From assembly GCA_012270795.1 (NCBI GenBank), contig JAAXHO010000142.1, positions 1 through 43,580 of the forward strand: DNA of 43,580 bases, read 5' to 3'. Shown piece after piece: positions 31,490 to 36,830 of the stretch. This stretch comes from Candidatus Poribacteria bacterium. GTDB lineage: Bacteria > Poribacteria > WGA-4E > WGA-3G. Made by a program: the position numbers and the translations under genes. The notes below the pieces were generated by a model. The model had not been told where the DNA came from, did not search any database, and saw only the letters and a program-made list of their open reading frames with translations. Position 1 is the stretch's first letter. Each line of letters starts with the position of its first letter.

Positions 31490-32182
31490 ATGTTGAAGAT
31501 GACAAAACGCACTGTCGTGAAAATAATTATCTTCACGATATTCATAGCTGGTTTCGTTGTTTTTATCCGTGACTTGAACGGGGTACGTCTTCTTCTTGTC
31601 TCTCCAAAGATACTTAAATACCGTCCTATCATTCAAGAACATGCTGTGAAACATCAGTTAGATTGGAGGCTTATTACAGCACTGATCGTTCAAGAATCTG
31701 GGTTCAATGAGCGTGCTGTGAGTTCCGCTGGTGCGAAAAGTTTGATGCAACTGATGCCAGATACCGCAAAAGAGCTGGGTGTCACTGACCCTTTTGCGTC
31801 ACATGAAAGTATCGCTGGTGCAACTCGGTATTTACGTAGTTTATATGATCTCTATCCAGAGAGTCCGCATCCGGATCGCATTCGTATCGCTTTAGCAAGT
31901 TATAATGGTGGACGCGGGCATATCAAAGATGCACAACAGATTACGGAATATCAAAACCTTGATTCTCATAAATGGGATAGTCTAAAATCGAGTCTTGTTC
32001 TACTCACCGAGAGAGATAAGGAATTGCATAAAGAAGTTTGGGGGTTCGCTAAACCACCACACGGCTATTTTAACGGGTATAACGAGACACGGAACTATGT
32101 TAAGCGGGTGATGCGGTACTATGATCGGTTGTGCTTTTATTCTGGGATTGTAAGGAGCGTGAAATCTTTTTTGCGATTATAA
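31490..32182 (+). CDS. Membrane-anchored lytic transglycosylase (Slt/GH23 type)
   Basis: 230 aa from ATG 31490 (CAGGTG ribosome site upstream; an in-frame GTG at 31481 overlaps that site). A single N-terminal membrane span (VVKIIIFTIFIAGFVVFI) is followed by an SLT domain (about 45-215). Catalytic Glu E69 lies in LIVQESGFNERAVSSAGAKS, followed by LMQLMPDTAKELG and ALASYNGGRGHI; the C-terminal ETRNYVKRVMRYYDR is typical. It cleaves peptidoglycan glycan strands to 1,6-anhydro products, in remodelling or to make room for envelope machinery. It converges with the TolB-like gene across a 19-bp gap. Confidence 0.93.
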   Translation: MLKMTKRTVVKIIIFTIFIAGFVVFIRDLNGVRLLLVSPKILKYRPIIQEHAVKHQLDWRLITALIVQESGFNERAVSSAGAKSLMQLMPDTAKELGVTDPFASHESIAGATRYLRSLYDLYPESPHPDRIRIALASYNGGRGHIKDAQQITEYQNLDSHKWDSLKSSLVLLTERDKELHKEVWGFAKPPHGYFNGYNETRNYVKRVMRYYDRLCFYSGIVRSVKSFLRL

Positions 32183-32201
32183 CTAACATTAAAAAAGAAT
32201 C

Positions 32202-33131
32202 TCACTGTTTCAGTTTTCCCCAGAGTGTTGCCAATTTGTCTTTGGGTTCAACAGACAAATTGACGCTATTTGTCCAATCAAACGACACACCCCTATCAAA
32301 CTCTATGAAAATCTCTATATGGGCACCTCCATTCACGGGTGCTGCATAATTCTTTTTCGCTGTTCTGTAAAAGATGTATTTTCTATCAGGTGACCATTTG
32401 ATATTACCAGAAACATTACGGTCTTTAGTTGTTATAATTTTCCGATTTTGTGGATTATTCAGTGAGGAAATAAGAATATCTTGATGCGTTCTGTATGCGA
32501 GTTCTCTACCATCTGGTGAGTAGGACAAGGATATTGCAAAATTGCTAACATGTTTAAACTGTCGAGTTGCAATATCATAGGTAAAAACCCCTTCTCTGTT
32601 GATGTAGGCAATTTGTTCTCCATCCGGTGCCCAGACAACTTCTGATGCTGAAGTTCTATTTACCAATTTTATATTTGGTATTCCTTTGTGTATCTCACTA
32701 TGTGGAATCAGAAAGATACCTATCTTTGGAAATGGATTATCACCAGCCGGTAGATTTGTAAATATAATATCTCCGTTTATTGAGATGTCAAGGTCCCAAA
32801 TTACCTCAAATCCTCTATGTGTTAAGTTAATAACTTCTTTGTCAGGTTGAAATCTATCAAAAAGATATACATTATCTTCAAATACATCTAAACCGTGCCC
32901 CCCATTAAAAATGATATATTGACCATCCTTTTGGACAGCGAAATCCCAAATGATATGTGAATGTTTATAAATTCGATAAGCGTTTTGTGTGTCCCATATA
33001 TCTGTCATCCACAGTTCATTGTTACTATTTCCTGAAGGTCTAAATATCACTTGATCAATAAGTTTTGCTTGTATTGTGAGTGGCACGAAGACTATCAGAT
33101 ATAAACAAAAGTATTTGAAAAAGGACTTCAT
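32202..33131 (-). CDS. Secreted TolB/PD40-like beta-propeller protein
   Basis: 309 aa with a signal peptide (FFKYFCLYLIVFVPLTIQA). Repeated 'hydrophobic-x-W/S-P-D-G/R-x-x-hydrophobic-A/F-Y' blades are seen: DFAVQKDGQYIIFNGG, EVVWAPDGEQIAYINREG, SLSYSPDGRELAYR, NIKWSPDRKYIFYR. It looks like a lone beta-propeller, about five or six blades; TolB's N-terminal domain is lacking. Probably a periplasmic binding or scaffold protein. It is the last gene of a three-gene minus-strand set behind the tandem promoters at 34388-34543; a 20-bp tandem duplication lies just before its start. Confidence 0.75.
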   Translation of the reverse strand: MKSFFKYFCLYLIVFVPLTIQAKLIDQVIFRPSGNSNNELWMTDIWDTQNAYRIYKHSHIIWDFAVQKDGQYIIFNGGHGLDVFEDNVYLFDRFQPDKEVINLTHRGFEVIWDLDISINGDIIFTNLPAGDNPFPKIGIFLIPHSEIHKGIPNIKLVNRTSASEVVWAPDGEQIAYINREGVFTYDIATRQFKHVSNFAISLSYSPDGRELAYRTHQDILISSLNNPQNRKIITTKDRNVSGNIKWSPDRKYIFYRTAKKNYAAPVNGGAHIEIFIEFDRGVSFDWTNSVNLSVEPKDKLATLWGKLKQ

Positions 33132-33132
33132 G

Positions 33133-33172
33133 ATAACACCTATTCTTCTGAAATAACACCTATTCTTCTGAA
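33133..33172. repeat. 20-bp perfect tandem duplication over a stop codon and ribosome site
   Basis: ATAACACCTATTCTTCTGAA occurs twice in a row (33133-33152, 33153-33172). On the minus strand it contains the lipoprotein gene's TAG and an AGGTG that serves as ribosome site for the gene starting at 33131, so the junction now carries two such sites. Confidence 0.85.
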
Positions 33173-33651
33173 GGAATTTTATCGGGAAGTTCCATCTTCA
33201 TAGGAAACTCACCTAAGTCAATAATCTTGTCAGTCGAAAAGTCGGAGGGTTTCGGTACAGGATAAAGTGGTTTACCAAAACGAAAACGATATTTTATCTG
33301 TGGTAACTCTATCCGCTCAAGGTATCTTAGTTCCTTATCAAGATCATCAAGTTGTTTTTCAAAAGTTTGAATTTTAGATTTAATTTCTTGCATACGTGCC
33401 TTTTCTGCCTTTGTTAGCGGACGTGGGTTCGGGTTTGTCCACACCCCCGTTGCGCGGTAGGAAAGGTCTGGATTGATATTCCAGACCTTTCCACCTACAG
33501 TCACATCCGTTGTTACCTTACTTTTTTGTTCGTTTGGGCGATTTCGACGAGAATGTTGTTCATCAAGTTGACACCCTATAAACAAAAAAAGCATCATGGT
33601 TATAACAAGAAAAGGTCCCATGTTTTGGTGACGGTGTGATATATGTATCAT
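33160..33651 (-). CDS. Putative lipoprotein with coiled coil
   Basis: Up to 163 aa. The N-terminal hydrophobic segment FLVITMMLFLFIGC ends in a lipobox-like FIGC (C27, or C17 if translation begins at the internal ATG that gives MGPFLV). The mature part has a charged spacer, NPRPLTKAEKARMQEIKSKI, and a predicted coiled coil to about residue 112 (FEKQLDDLDKELRYLERIEL), then a proline-rich tail. Probably attached to an envelope membrane and rod-shaped. Its ATG overlaps the stop of the upstream gene by 4 bp, showing coupling. No family recognised. Confidence 0.7.
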   Translation of the reverse strand: MIHISHRHQNMGPFLVITMMLFLFIGCQLDEQHSRRNRPNEQKSKVTTDVTVGGKVWNINPDLSYRATGVWTNPNPRPLTKAEKARMQEIKSKIQTFEKQLDDLDKELRYLERIELPQIKYRFRFGKPLYPVPKPSDFSTDKIIDLGEFPMKMELPDKIPSEE

Positions 33652-34235
33652 AGAACAATTCTTGCCTCATATCCAATTTTTATTCTACCACCAGGGGCAC
33701 TTACAGCTGCAGATGCCATCACCCTGCCCCATGGATGAGCGTCAAAGATTCGGAAATCATCTACTTCTACTGAAAGTTTTTCATGTCCTTTACCTATATC
33801 AGCATCACCTGGGTCATTCGGATTATGATTGATTCGAGTTTCATGAGGAAATTTAATCCAAGCATTCGCTCTACCCGTACGTTCGTAATGAATATCTGAT
33901 GATGCCCATGCCCAAACAACGAGTTGTTCGTCTTCGTTAAGGAAGGCATGTCCTCCGATGTAAACTCCACTTAAGTAATCAAGATTCTCACCTTCATCAT
34001 CACCGTCATCTTCATATCGAGCCGCGTATACACTAATTGAGGCACTACCTTGGGGGTCTATATTGTCATTAACAAAATAAAAGTCGTGTAAATCTGCGTT
34101 TTCATCAATACCTTCTTTAATATATTCGACATCAAGATCTACTCCGATAGCGTTTTTGAGTAGAAATCCGCCAAGACAGCATACACCTACCAACAGCAGT
34201 GCTGCAAGTAGTTTTTTTGATTTGATCCTTTGCAT
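33648..34235 (-). CDS. Exported beta-rich protein, unknown function
   Basis: 195 aa from ATG 34235, chosen for its AAGGAG site; longer in-frame starts up to 34319 lack one. N-terminal membrane segment LLAALLLVGVCCLGGFLL, then an acidic region (IKEGIDENADLHDFYFVND, DDGDDEGENLDY) and alternating strands with repeated 'hydrophobic-x-V/I-x-A' (SISVYAARY, LVVWAWASSD, GRVMASAAVSAPGGRIKIGY). It looks like a secreted beta-sandwich or surface protein; no homolog recognised. First gene of the minus-strand operon driven by the tandem promoters, with a leader of about 145 nt. Confidence 0.65.
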   Translation of the reverse strand: MQRIKSKKLLAALLLVGVCCLGGFLLKNAIGVDLDVEYIKEGIDENADLHDFYFVNDNIDPQGSASISVYAARYEDDGDDEGENLDYLSGVYIGGHAFLNEDEQLVVWAWASSDIHYERTGRANAWIKFPHETRINHNPNDPGDADIGKGHEKLSVEVDDFRIFDAHPWGRVMASAAVSAPGGRIKIGYEARIVL

Positions 34236-34387
34236 TATAATTCTCCTTATTATTGTGTGACACGTCACAATAGCGTGTCTGTTATTAAGAGTCCCTTTGA
34301 TGTACCAAAGGTTTTCCACTTGTTAGTGAAAGACGTGCACCTTGCGTGTCACGTTTTTGGTGCAGAATCTCTCTATAATTAACAATA

Positions 34388-34416
34388 ATTATACACAAAA
34401 CACAATTGAATGTCAA
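34388..34416 (-). promoter_or_regulatory. Sigma70 promoter P1 (perfect consensus)
   Basis: On the minus strand TTGACA (34416-34411), a 17-bp spacer and TATAAT (34393-34388): both hexamers are consensus. Predicted start near 34381, giving ~146 nt of leader to the ATG at 34235. It is the promoter nearest the gene in a 63-bp-period triplet. Confidence 0.75.
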
Positions 34417-34450
34417 GTAATTAACATCAAATTTCATAATTTTAACAATA

Positions 34451-34479
34451 ATTATACACAAAAAATCAAAAATTGCCAA
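34451..34479 (-). promoter_or_regulatory. Sigma70 promoter P2 of the tandem triplet
   Basis: On the minus strand TTGGCA (34479-34474), 17 bp, TATAAT (34456-34451), exactly 63 bp upstream of P1 and in the same orientation. The -10 and its flank (AACAATAATTATACACAAAA on the plus strand) are identical to P1. Confidence 0.65.
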
Positions 34480-34513
34480 TAAATCAACATTAAATTAGTA
34501 TGTTTTGACAATA

Positions 34514-34543
34514 ATTATGCAAAATATACTAATGCTTAGTCAA
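34514..34543 (-). promoter_or_regulatory. Sigma70-like promoter P3 of the tandem triplet
   Basis: On the minus strand TTGACT (34543-34538), 18 bp, CATAAT (34519-34514). The -10 is exactly 63 bp beyond that of P2; this unit is the most diverged. Confidence 0.5.
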
Positions 34544-34564
34544 CATCTGTTTGATAGTTCAATT

Positions 34565-34646
34565 GTAGGTCGGGTAGAAGCACGAAACCCGACAGGCATA
34601 CATTTATTATTGATAAAGTCGGGTTTCGTGCCTCTACCCGACCTAC
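34565..34646. repeat. GTAGGTCGGG hairpin repeat, copy 1
   Basis: Arms GTAGGTCGGGTAGAAGCACG and CGTGCCTCTACCCGACCTAC, an 82-bp near-palindrome. Related copies are at 34719-34792 and 36723-36810. Confidence 0.85.
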
Positions 34647-34718
34647 AGAAGAATGGTATAAAAATAATTTGAAGTGGTATTCTACATGATTCGCCATGAT
34701 TCTTCATACCGTTGATTT

Positions 34719-34792
34719 CGGATAGAGGCATGAAACCCGACATGTATTGATTGTGGCTATCCTGTCGGGTTTCGTGCCTCTACCCGACCTAC
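34719..34792. repeat. GTAGGTCGGG hairpin repeat, copy 2
   Basis: The left arm is cut down to GGATAGAGGCATGAAACCCGACA; the right arm (GTGCCTCTACCCGACCTAC) is intact. It is preceded by CATACCGTTGATTT (34705-34718), the end of the 35-bp module found at 565-599, so the left side looks replaced. The right arm and 34 bp after it duplicate those of copy 1. Confidence 0.8.
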
Positions 34793-34932
34793 AGAAGAAT
34801 GGTATAAAAATAATTTGAAGTGGTATAAAAAGTTAAGTTTAAAGGAGATTTTTAGGGTTAAGATTTCCTCAATTAATTTGTCGAATTCACCTAAAAAGAC
34901 AAAACAGAGTTTCATTTCAGTCTGAATATTCA

Positions 34933-35343
34933 CTATAAGGGGTCTTCTTCAAGCAATGCTGTGATAAGTTCTGCTATTGGCGATTTTTTCGAGGAAGGGA
35001 TTATCGCAAGTGCTTGTGCTAATCTTTTTTTTTCATCTACCCAATCAATTCTTGCGCGTGCATTTTCATCTCCAAAATATGCAGCATTAAAATCTTCAAT
35101 AAGTATTTGTTGTATTTCAAGGCACAACCCGCCTGCTTCAATGCCAAATAATTTTTCCAGATCAAATTGGTGTCTTTGGCTCGGTTGCCGTCTTCCAGTT
35201 TCCCAGTGTTGAACCAATTCGGTTTCAACACCTATTTCTTGTGCAAGTTGTTCCCGTGTAAGATGAGCGTCTTCGCGTAGATAACGCAAGAAGTGTCTAT
35301 TGACTTGCTGTGCTTCTTGTGTGTTTTCATCTATGTTCGCCAT
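34933..35343 (-). CDS. XRE-family helix-turn-helix regulator
   Basis: 136 aa from ATG 35343, chosen because GGAGGGAC lies just upstream; an in-frame start at 35370 is less likely. An XRE/Cro-type HTH occupies about 17-68: FLRYLREDAHLTREQLAQEI, GVETELVQHWETGRRQPSQR. The C-terminal half is helical and acidic, ending PIAELITALLEEDPL. Probably a DNA-binding repressor of local genes. It lies 39 bp after the KOW/barrel-sandwich gene on the same strand and may be cotranscribed with it. Confidence 0.85.
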   Translation of the reverse strand: MANIDENTQEAQQVNRHFLRYLREDAHLTREQLAQEIGVETELVQHWETGRRQPSQRHQFDLEKLFGIEAGGLCLEIQQILIEDFNAAYFGDENARARIDWVDEKKRLAQALAIIPSSKKSPIAELITALLEEDPL

Positions 35344-35382
35344 ATAGTGTCCCTCCAACTGAATATTCATCTGTTTACGGTT

Positions 35383-36507
35383 TTATCCTATTTCAATTGC
35401 TTCAACGTTGGCGCGGGGGAGAGTTGTTTTTTTACCATCTTCGAATTCCACCTGTAGCACACGCACTTCTGCCTCCGTTTCCAATTGCTGCAGTTCAATC
35501 GGGAGTTCAGTGACGTATCCCAATTTGCCGAAATGGGGTTCACGAATAACACGGACAGAACTGCCAATTTCTAATGTGCCTTCGGACACATCAGAGTCTA
35601 TATCTTTTCCATCTGAAACGAAAGGAATGACAATTTCTGGGCGCACGACACCTGCGCGTATTTGGGTAGCACCGTTGATTGAGGTTTTCATACCTTCGCG
35701 TGCTTTCAAGAGTGCAAAAGTGCGGTCAGCCATAGCAATACTGCCGAAACCTTCGGTAATGACAAGGGTGATGCCGAGTTCCTCGGAGCCGGTGATTGCT
35801 ACGCCAAGTTCGTATCCGAGAAGTTGTCGTAAATCCGCATCATCAATGCCGCCTGCGATGATGCCGTGGACACCGATTTCTACGGCTTTCTGAATTGCAT
35901 CGGTTGCAACAAGCGAGCCGCCTACAATGATCTTTCCTTTGTGTTCTGGTAATATTTGCTCTACTCGTAGGTTGTCACTTGGGGAATCAACGACTACAAC
36001 TAAGTCGCCTAACGTCTCCCCTCCGACTCCAAAAATACCTTGGACATAAGTGCCGTAGGTTTCCACTGTGACACCTTCATTTGGGATAGTTTCTGTTATA
36101 GTTCCGTCAGTGTATGCTTTTACTTCAACTGGGATGGGGGGTTCACGAAGGATGACCTGTCCTGTTACATCGGATACAGCCTCAATTGTGCCATCAATCG
36201 GAGAACGTGCTTGAGATTTGAATAGTCCAAAAATCCCTTTTGTGGAAGCAATAATTTCATTTTCTAATATCTTCTCACCTGTCTGTTTTAGCATGTATTC
36301 TTCAATTTCTTCGGGTGAAATACTGAGCAGGTTTGCTACGTTCAACAACTGCACGTTCCCGGGCAGGTCTGCTTTCGCAACAACATCTTCTGCCTTAACA
36401 GAAACACCTGTTTCAACAAGCACTTCCCCTTCAAGTGGAAGCCGTCTTCTTTTTTGTATCGTCATTCCCTCGGTGACTTTCAGTCCGGGGGTATATGCGT
36501 GTGCCAT
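35383..36507 (-). CDS. Barrel-sandwich and KOW domain protein, unknown function
   Basis: 374 aa, cytoplasmic (no signal). N-terminus: AHAYTPGLKVTEGMTIQKRR, RLPLEGEVLVETGVSVKAED, a lipoyl/RnfC-like barrel-sandwich motif; SPIDGTIEAVSDVTGQVIL is a second half. The middle (about 185-275) is a Rossmann-like segment: GKIIVGGSLVATDAIQKAVE, IGVHGIIAGGIDD, ELGITLVITEGFGSIAM. The C-terminus (about 325-374) is a KOW/SH3-like barrel, GSSVRVIREPHFGKLGYVTE. The combination is odd: cofactor-carrier-like, nucleotide-like and KOW folds together, with no lysine of the biotin/lipoyl type evident. I recognise it only as a conserved uncharacterised architecture. It has its own start region after the 36544 repeat. 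Confidence 0.7.
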   Translation of the reverse strand: MAHAYTPGLKVTEGMTIQKRRRLPLEGEVLVETGVSVKAEDVVAKADLPGNVQLLNVANLLSISPEEIEEYMLKQTGEKILENEIIASTKGIFGLFKSQARSPIDGTIEAVSDVTGQVILREPPIPVEVKAYTDGTITETIPNEGVTVETYGTYVQGIFGVGGETLGDLVVVVDSPSDNLRVEQILPEHKGKIIVGGSLVATDAIQKAVEIGVHGIIAGGIDDADLRQLLGYELGVAITGSEELGITLVITEGFGSIAMADRTFALLKAREGMKTSINGATQIRAGVVRPEIVIPFVSDGKDIDSDVSEGTLEIGSSVRVIREPHFGKLGYVTELPIELQQLETEAEVRVLQVEFEDGKKTTLPRANVEAIEIG

Positions 36508-36543: not shown

Positions 36544-36714
36544 TGGTTTACTCGGCAATTAATATTGGTATTTTGGACACCCCAAATTCACCCCCCTTTA
36601 TCCCGACCCTCCAACCCCCCGCAAGCGGGGGGCTAAGAATAGCAAGCGAGGGGAAGGGACTTTTGGGTTTATTCTGTCTGTTCTATATATAATAAATGTT
36701 TAGCGAGTAAACCA
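36544..36714. repeat. MITE-like element with TGGTTTACTCG ends
   Basis: TGGTTTACTCG (36544-36554) and CGAGTAAACCA (36704-36714) are perfect 11-bp inverted ends. Inside is a C/G-rich stretch with CCCCCCGCAAGCGGGGGG (36616-36633). Non-coding; about 37 bp upstream of the KOW gene's start. Confidence 0.75.
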
Positions 36715-36722
36715 TTTAGTTT

Positions 36723-36810
36723 TGTAGGTCGGGTAGAGCGCAGCGAAACCCGGCATTAATTCAAATAGGTGGCATCCTGTCGGGTTTCGCTGCGCTCTAC
36801 CCGACCTACA
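36723..36810. repeat. GTAGGTCGGG hairpin repeat, copy 3
   Basis: TGTAGGTCGGGTAGAGCGCA...TGCGCTCTACCCGACCTACA: an 88-bp near-palindrome with ~31-bp arms. It lies 20 bp past the 3' end of the dehydrogenase gene, where it could also act as a terminator. Confidence 0.85.
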
Positions 36811-36830
36811 ATGTAAGAGTGGACAATCCA

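Follow-up and report, generated by a model that had tools for sequence, protein, structure and literature searches.

INTRODUCTION

Poribacteria live in sponges as abundant symbionts that have not been cultured, and no paper on their promoters was found in the literature searched. In contig JAAXHO010000142.1 of a Candidatus Poribacteria bacterium (43,580 nt; this whole stretch is hereafter called the window), a preliminary description had reported three sigma70 promoters in an exact 63-bp tandem repeat ahead of an operon, which raises the question of what a promoter repeated at six helical turns is for. Exact promoter repeats had no direct precedent in the literature searched. The locus shows what form a strong promoter takes in the phylum, offers a candidate regulator-operator pair together with a family-less leader RNA before variable exported proteins of a kind likely to meet the host, and provides a natural test of whether selection acts on the six-turn phasing of repeated promoters. 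We compared it with four other species of the same genus (G001, G003, G016 and G017; five species with that of the window) and extended the analysis to the adjoining HTH gene, the leader structure and the islet that carries them, none of which the preliminary description had recognised. With a probability of about 0.5, we read the feature as a fixed, helically phased promoter-operator array, in which two near-perfect sigma70 promoters would be joined by an upstream promoterless box.

RESULTS

Two sigma70-type promoters and a distal box recur at 63 bp

On the minus strand the -10 hexamers start at 34393, 34456 and 34519, i.e. at a spacing of exactly 63 bp, and the units read TTGACA-17-TATAAT (proximal, 34416..34388), TTGGCA-17-TATAAT (middle, 34479..34451) and TTGACT-18-CATAAT (distal, 34543..34514); the -10 coordinates, -35 hexamers and spacing reported earlier were all correct. 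The features of the array are:

34379..34534, minus strand: array of 63-bp period (distal, middle and proximal -10/box blocks), ungapped in the four other species
34388..34416, minus strand: proximal promoter, perfect, predicted start near 34381; kept in four of five species, -10 lost in G016
34451..34479, minus strand: middle promoter, 11/12; perfect in G003, G016 and G017
34502..34524, minus strand: distal box, -10-like, without a conserved -35; TTTTGCATAATTATTGTYAAAA also in the relatives
34528..34647, minus strand: dispersed hairpin element of ~120 bp, the end of which carries the distal -35 TTGACT (34543-34538)

No tandem repeat in the window scores higher than the array (157 versus 80 for the runner-up), and the repeat search found two full copies of the 63-bp unit that are 71% alike, as well as a 30-nt core in three copies. 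Identity between the units is concentrated around the -10, with the remainder diverged (~70% overall); the repeated module consists of yATAATTATTGTyAA over each -10/start site and TGTTAATTAC just 5′ of each conserved -35. The repeat is exact in its period but not in its copies, which are only 68-71% alike within a species (84% in one), and the distal -35 lies outside it.

Judged by hexamers, a spacing of 16-18 bp and genome-wide enrichment, the proximal and middle units belong to the sigma70 class, whereas the distal one does not, as a conserved -35 is missing. Three of the five species have a perfect middle unit and two have one that matches 11/12. The proximal unit is perfect in four and has a -10 of TCCAAT in G016, one of the species with a perfect middle unit. 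The distal unit matches the promoter consensus at only 7-8/12 in the four relatives because no -35 exists there (2-3/6 in that region; TTGACT occurs in the window only), yet its 17-mer TTTTGCATAATTATTGT is unchanged in all five species, so that the feature kept in the relatives is not a promoter. Thus the proposed trio of sigma70 promoters holds for the middle and proximal units and not for the distal one.

The hairpin element that supplies TTGACT has at least seven further copies in the genome (90-97% identical). Since the hexamer lies inside the element's end, inserted 5′ of the old -10-like box, the third promoter would combine the end of a repeat with an ancient box; it may be active in this species, but it is not the part that selection has maintained. 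In the window the hairpin element GTCGGGTTTCGTGCCTCTACCCGACCTACA was seen at 34528-34826 and 36708-36812, with two identical 63-nt copies 146 bp apart, and in many copies its end reads CAAACAGATGTTGACTAAGCACTA.

The array promoters are of the rRNA type

A perfect consensus promoter had been described as rare in ordinary chromosomes; it is not rare here. The genome holds 86 sites of TTGACA-17-TATAAT versus 3 of the reversed control pattern, and most rRNA promoters are perfect with the 17-bp spacing (28 of the 28 examined in the family, 4/7 beyond it). By their sequence, the array promoters are assigned to the strongest class of the phylum, the rRNA type. Two further groups of perfect promoters were noted: about 12 share the palindromic spacer TTGACACACATTATTATATGTGTTATAAT (e.g. 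G000:C215:48053, C192:155395, C256:32446) and resemble a regulon whose operator lies between -35 and -10, and a second group reads TTGACATTTTTTGAAnCCAATATTATAAT (e.g. G000:C22:429, C139:21954, C278:17723), being either a dispersed promoter-bearing repeat or a second regulon.

Unit number and phase are fixed across five species

All five species have the same syntenic order, namely the 374-aa gene, the HTH gene, the array, the leader and exported-protein genes. Between the distal and proximal -10, not one indel occurs in any of them at an identity of 71-89%. Each unit is closer to the unit at its own position in other species (0.81 and 0.85) than to its neighbours within a species (0.68-0.71; 0.84 in G003), which dates the array to before the split of these species. 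In G003 the middle and proximal units have been homogenised, so recombination acts, yet the unit number stays at three, as in each of the five species, while spacers vary. A box-gap-box pattern with 48-78 bp between box starts, searched in 194 genomes (~85 in the phylum), gave seven matches distributed over the array genomes other than that of G001, all at 63 bp and all at the array locus, besides one unrelated 51-bp match and none for the reversed control; the G001 array carries TACTGT and so escapes the exact pattern. No array was found elsewhere in the ~85 phylum genomes, and it is confined to the five species at the syntenic locus. The 63-bp unit is thus not a dispersed repeat unrelated to promoters, an outcome that had been considered beforehand; the distal -35 alone lies in a dispersed element.

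An earlier suggestion was that promoter multiplication tunes dosage. In the form considered here, several strong constitutive promoters would set the expression of the exported proteins by their number, with no dedicated regulator. The two conserved, perfect or near-perfect units of the rRNA class would suit this, as would their 63-bp spacing, since occlusion between tandem promoters in Escherichia coli is reported up to a limit of 35 bp (PMC8830795). Against it, the copy number is three in every species, as is not expected of a copy-number-variable (contingency) promoter repeat, the distal box is kept without a -35, and dosage needs no exact phasing. A synthetic tandem promoter trio, moreover, gave an output below that of each promoter alone (PMC11339919), and more promoters need not mean a higher dosage. 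The constant unit number and the weak synthetic trio weaken this explanation, and we regard it as unlikely. Those E. coli promoters (PMC8830795) and synthetic pairs and trios (PMC11339919) resemble the array in lying on the same strand close upstream of one gene with starts >35 bp apart; here, however, one sequence is repeated with a constant 63-bp period, a further box without a conserved -35 is present, and the whole is kept across species.

A slightly less probable explanation is that an A/T-rich promoter was duplicated in tandem long ago and the copies were merely kept by descent, their spacing functionless and one promoter being enough. The lost proximal -10 of G016 and the homogenised units of G003 are in keeping with this, as are the paralogous genes in G017 and G016, which have a single promoter, and common ancestry could account in part for the ungapped conservation. 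A functionless spacing, however, accords poorly with the lack of any inter-unit indel in five species despite 11-29% substitution, and with the invariant distal 17-mer and boxes conserved beyond the -10. Because the layout is kept in four related species, it has the look of a dedicated switch and not of copying at random.

Phase-locked TGTYAA boxes and an adjoining Xre-type gene

The promoter-operator reading draws on a second motif of the array, TGTYAA, the five positions of which lie at -117, -96, -54, -33 and +9 from the start of the proximal -10, i.e. in steps of 21, 42, 21 and 42 bp:

34505..34510, minus strand: box 1, TGTCAA, at -117
34484..34489, minus strand: box 2 position, at -96, TGTTGA in the window and TGTTAA in four relatives
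34442..34447, minus strand: box 3, TGTTAA, at -54
34421..34426, minus strand: box 4, TGTTAA, at -33
34379..34384, minus strand: box 5, TGTTAA, at +9, absent in G016

All five positions are filled in three species and four of the five in the other two, compared with about one occurrence expected by chance in the same stretch on both strands. That the boxes are locked in phase, and that one is retained where there is no conserved promoter, speaks for the binding of a regulator, and the idea of an amplified regulator site is the one from the preliminary description that fits best.

A candidate for the regulator is encoded directly 5′ of the array:

34933..35343, minus strand: Xre-type HTH protein with an HTH_3 domain, 136 aa from the inner ATG

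The domain and the adjacency place it with the Xre family; its fold was modelled with low confidence (pLDDT 66), and the model had generic Xre structural neighbours only. Within the genus the gene and the array share one distribution, the five species, with one paralogue of the gene in G003, and homologues in a related genus are 46-58% identical. The paralogue (G003:C51) is followed, 38 nt after the gene, by an exact AATTATTGTTAA (shuffle P 0.0005), whereas the box downstream of distant HTH homologues (G018, G072, G078 and G065) was not above chance; the former makes a link between HTH protein and array plausible, and the protein probably reads the array boxes. There are counter-points to an operator: the link to the HTH gene is mainly one of linkage, and the repeated block is largely the promoter consensus itself. 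The paralogue locus (L181, 2294-2410) shows AATTATTGTTAA and then repeats of AAAAATACGGAAATTTAAG, with other exported-protein genes present, and is possibly a second operator array.

Lambda CI, P22 c2 and SinR are Xre/Cro-CI-type repressors that act on multiple phased operators. The present locus is like theirs in having an HTH_3 gene beside repeated boxes that overlap -10/+1, and differs in that the putative operators are direct repeats at 21/42/63 bp and in that no recognised relative was found for the C-terminal part of the HTH protein.

A conserved leader and exchangeable cargo lie downstream

The transcript from the array would begin with a structured leader:

34242..34384, minus strand: conserved structured leader of ~145 nt, predicted to form two hairpins enclosed by two closing stems, and a third hairpin just 5′ of the ribosome-binding site

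Six of seven leader copies clearly fold better than their shuffles (z -3.1 to -3.9; the exception is G016b), and among 11 related sequences, in an alignment fitted to the structure, the covariation score was moderate, 0.224 versus 0.174, a value reached by 1/500 shuffles. The leader has many indels between species, unlike the equally long ungapped array. The leader model matches the five array species, three extra single-promoter copies beside the array in G017 and G016, and one copy at G016:C101; diverged leaders stand before a GFGPYPEVP-family gene at G015:C72 and, at G016:C3, before a homologue of the operon found in the window. A weak match at G015:C53 was discarded as chance, as no family gene lies behind it. 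In being conserved, multi-stemmed, placed before a ribosome-binding site and recurrent before paralogous genes, the leader is like Rfam leaders and riboswitches. In contrast to these, an Rfam scan of the window region and the relatives' leaders gave no match, neither an intrinsic terminator on the minus strand nor an expression platform was recognised in it, and G003 is without most of it, so that the leader is not essential to the array. Terminator calls on the plus strand proved to be the leader hairpins read backwards.

The leader and array belong to an islet between conserved flanks:

32152..35380, no strand assigned: variable islet of 3.2 kb (HTH gene, array, leader and cargo operon)
35383..36507, minus strand: 374-aa flank gene upstream of the islet, conserved
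33648..34235, minus strand: ORF1, 195 aa, with a membrane/signal segment at the N-terminus and without a Pfam family
33160..33651, minus strand: ORF2, 163-aa putative lipoprotein with lipobox FIGC, its start overlapping the ORF1 stop (ATGA)
32202..33131, minus strand: ORF3, 309-aa exported TolB-like beta-propeller

L061 and L065 lack the islet, the two flanks (to 35381 and from 32151) adjoining each other there, and in the closest species (L054) WD40 genes stand in its place. The flank gene had high-identity matches in Candidatus Poribacteria only (best 96%), which assigns the window to a metagenome-assembled genome (MAG) of this uncultured sponge-symbiont lineage. In the relatives the first cargo gene encodes a membrane-anchored GFGPYPEVP-type protein, which in the window is replaced by the three-gene operon that G016 carries elsewhere; cargo thus changes behind a constant control region. 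Cargo proteins had no convincing family in Pfam, NCBIfam or PADLOC, and their assignment as defence genes was rejected. The GFGPYPEVP-type family, which likewise has no convincing Pfam family, is large in Poribacteria (≤19 copies per genome; L037:3128-3871, L034, L035, L036 and many genomes) and has the motifs SPFGFGPYPEVPEDYP and SGIDPYQYLNL. Between ORF2 and ORF3 of the window, at 33133-33172, lies a perfect 20-bp tandem duplication, ATAACACCTATTCTTCTGAA.

DISCUSSION

A helically phased 63-bp array of sigma70 type ahead of a ~145-nt leader and a three-gene exported-protein operon is supported as first described, and we propose that it works as a promoter-operator array. A regulator, for which the adjoining Xre-type HTH protein is the best candidate, would bind cooperatively to the boxes, all from one side of the helix. 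Bound on a -10 it would block that promoter; each block is also placed at about -69 from the promoter that follows, which it could assist. A centre near -69 is a position where upstream-class activators can act. Upon release of the regulator, the rRNA-class promoters would express the cargo operon through the structured leader. A bolder extension, which we hold improbable, is a two-layer switch for interchangeable exported-protein cargo: the array would act as a relay, in which a bound box shuts its own promoter and supports the next ~69 bp downstream, and the leader shared by the cargo genes would move with them as a structured cis-regulatory RNA of a new class.

The array shares several traits with the rRNA promoters of Poribacteria. 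These too have a perfect TTGACA-17-TATAAT after an A/T-rich stretch, and in this genome the sole other occurrence of TAATTATTGTYAA precedes a 16S gene, where the upstream 19-mer equals that of the distal box exactly and lies 64 bp from the rRNA promoter -10. Unlike the array, they are single promoters with no 63-bp repetition, and the box is not consistently conserved. Least probable of all is that the array copies an rRNA upstream control region (through a factor common to both whose position is Fis-like, or by an arrangement of the UP-element type) and answers to growth rate instead of the HTH protein, since the rRNA site that matches the distal 19-mer at 18/19 in G001 does so at just 14-15/19 in G003, G016 and G017 and is better described in the genus as a varying dyad. 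With matches of 14-18/19 in the other array species, the rRNA kinship is treated as a lead; as a general rule it was rejected, being marked in this genome and G001 and inconsistent in the other array species. Two further observations were made on rRNA promoters: those of the family have a conserved A/T-rich block, AAATTATGCATTTTTTTTACAATTTTAT, immediately 5′ of TTGACA (L216-L238), and the upstream regions in the genus of the window contain the dyad GCATAA..TTATGC.
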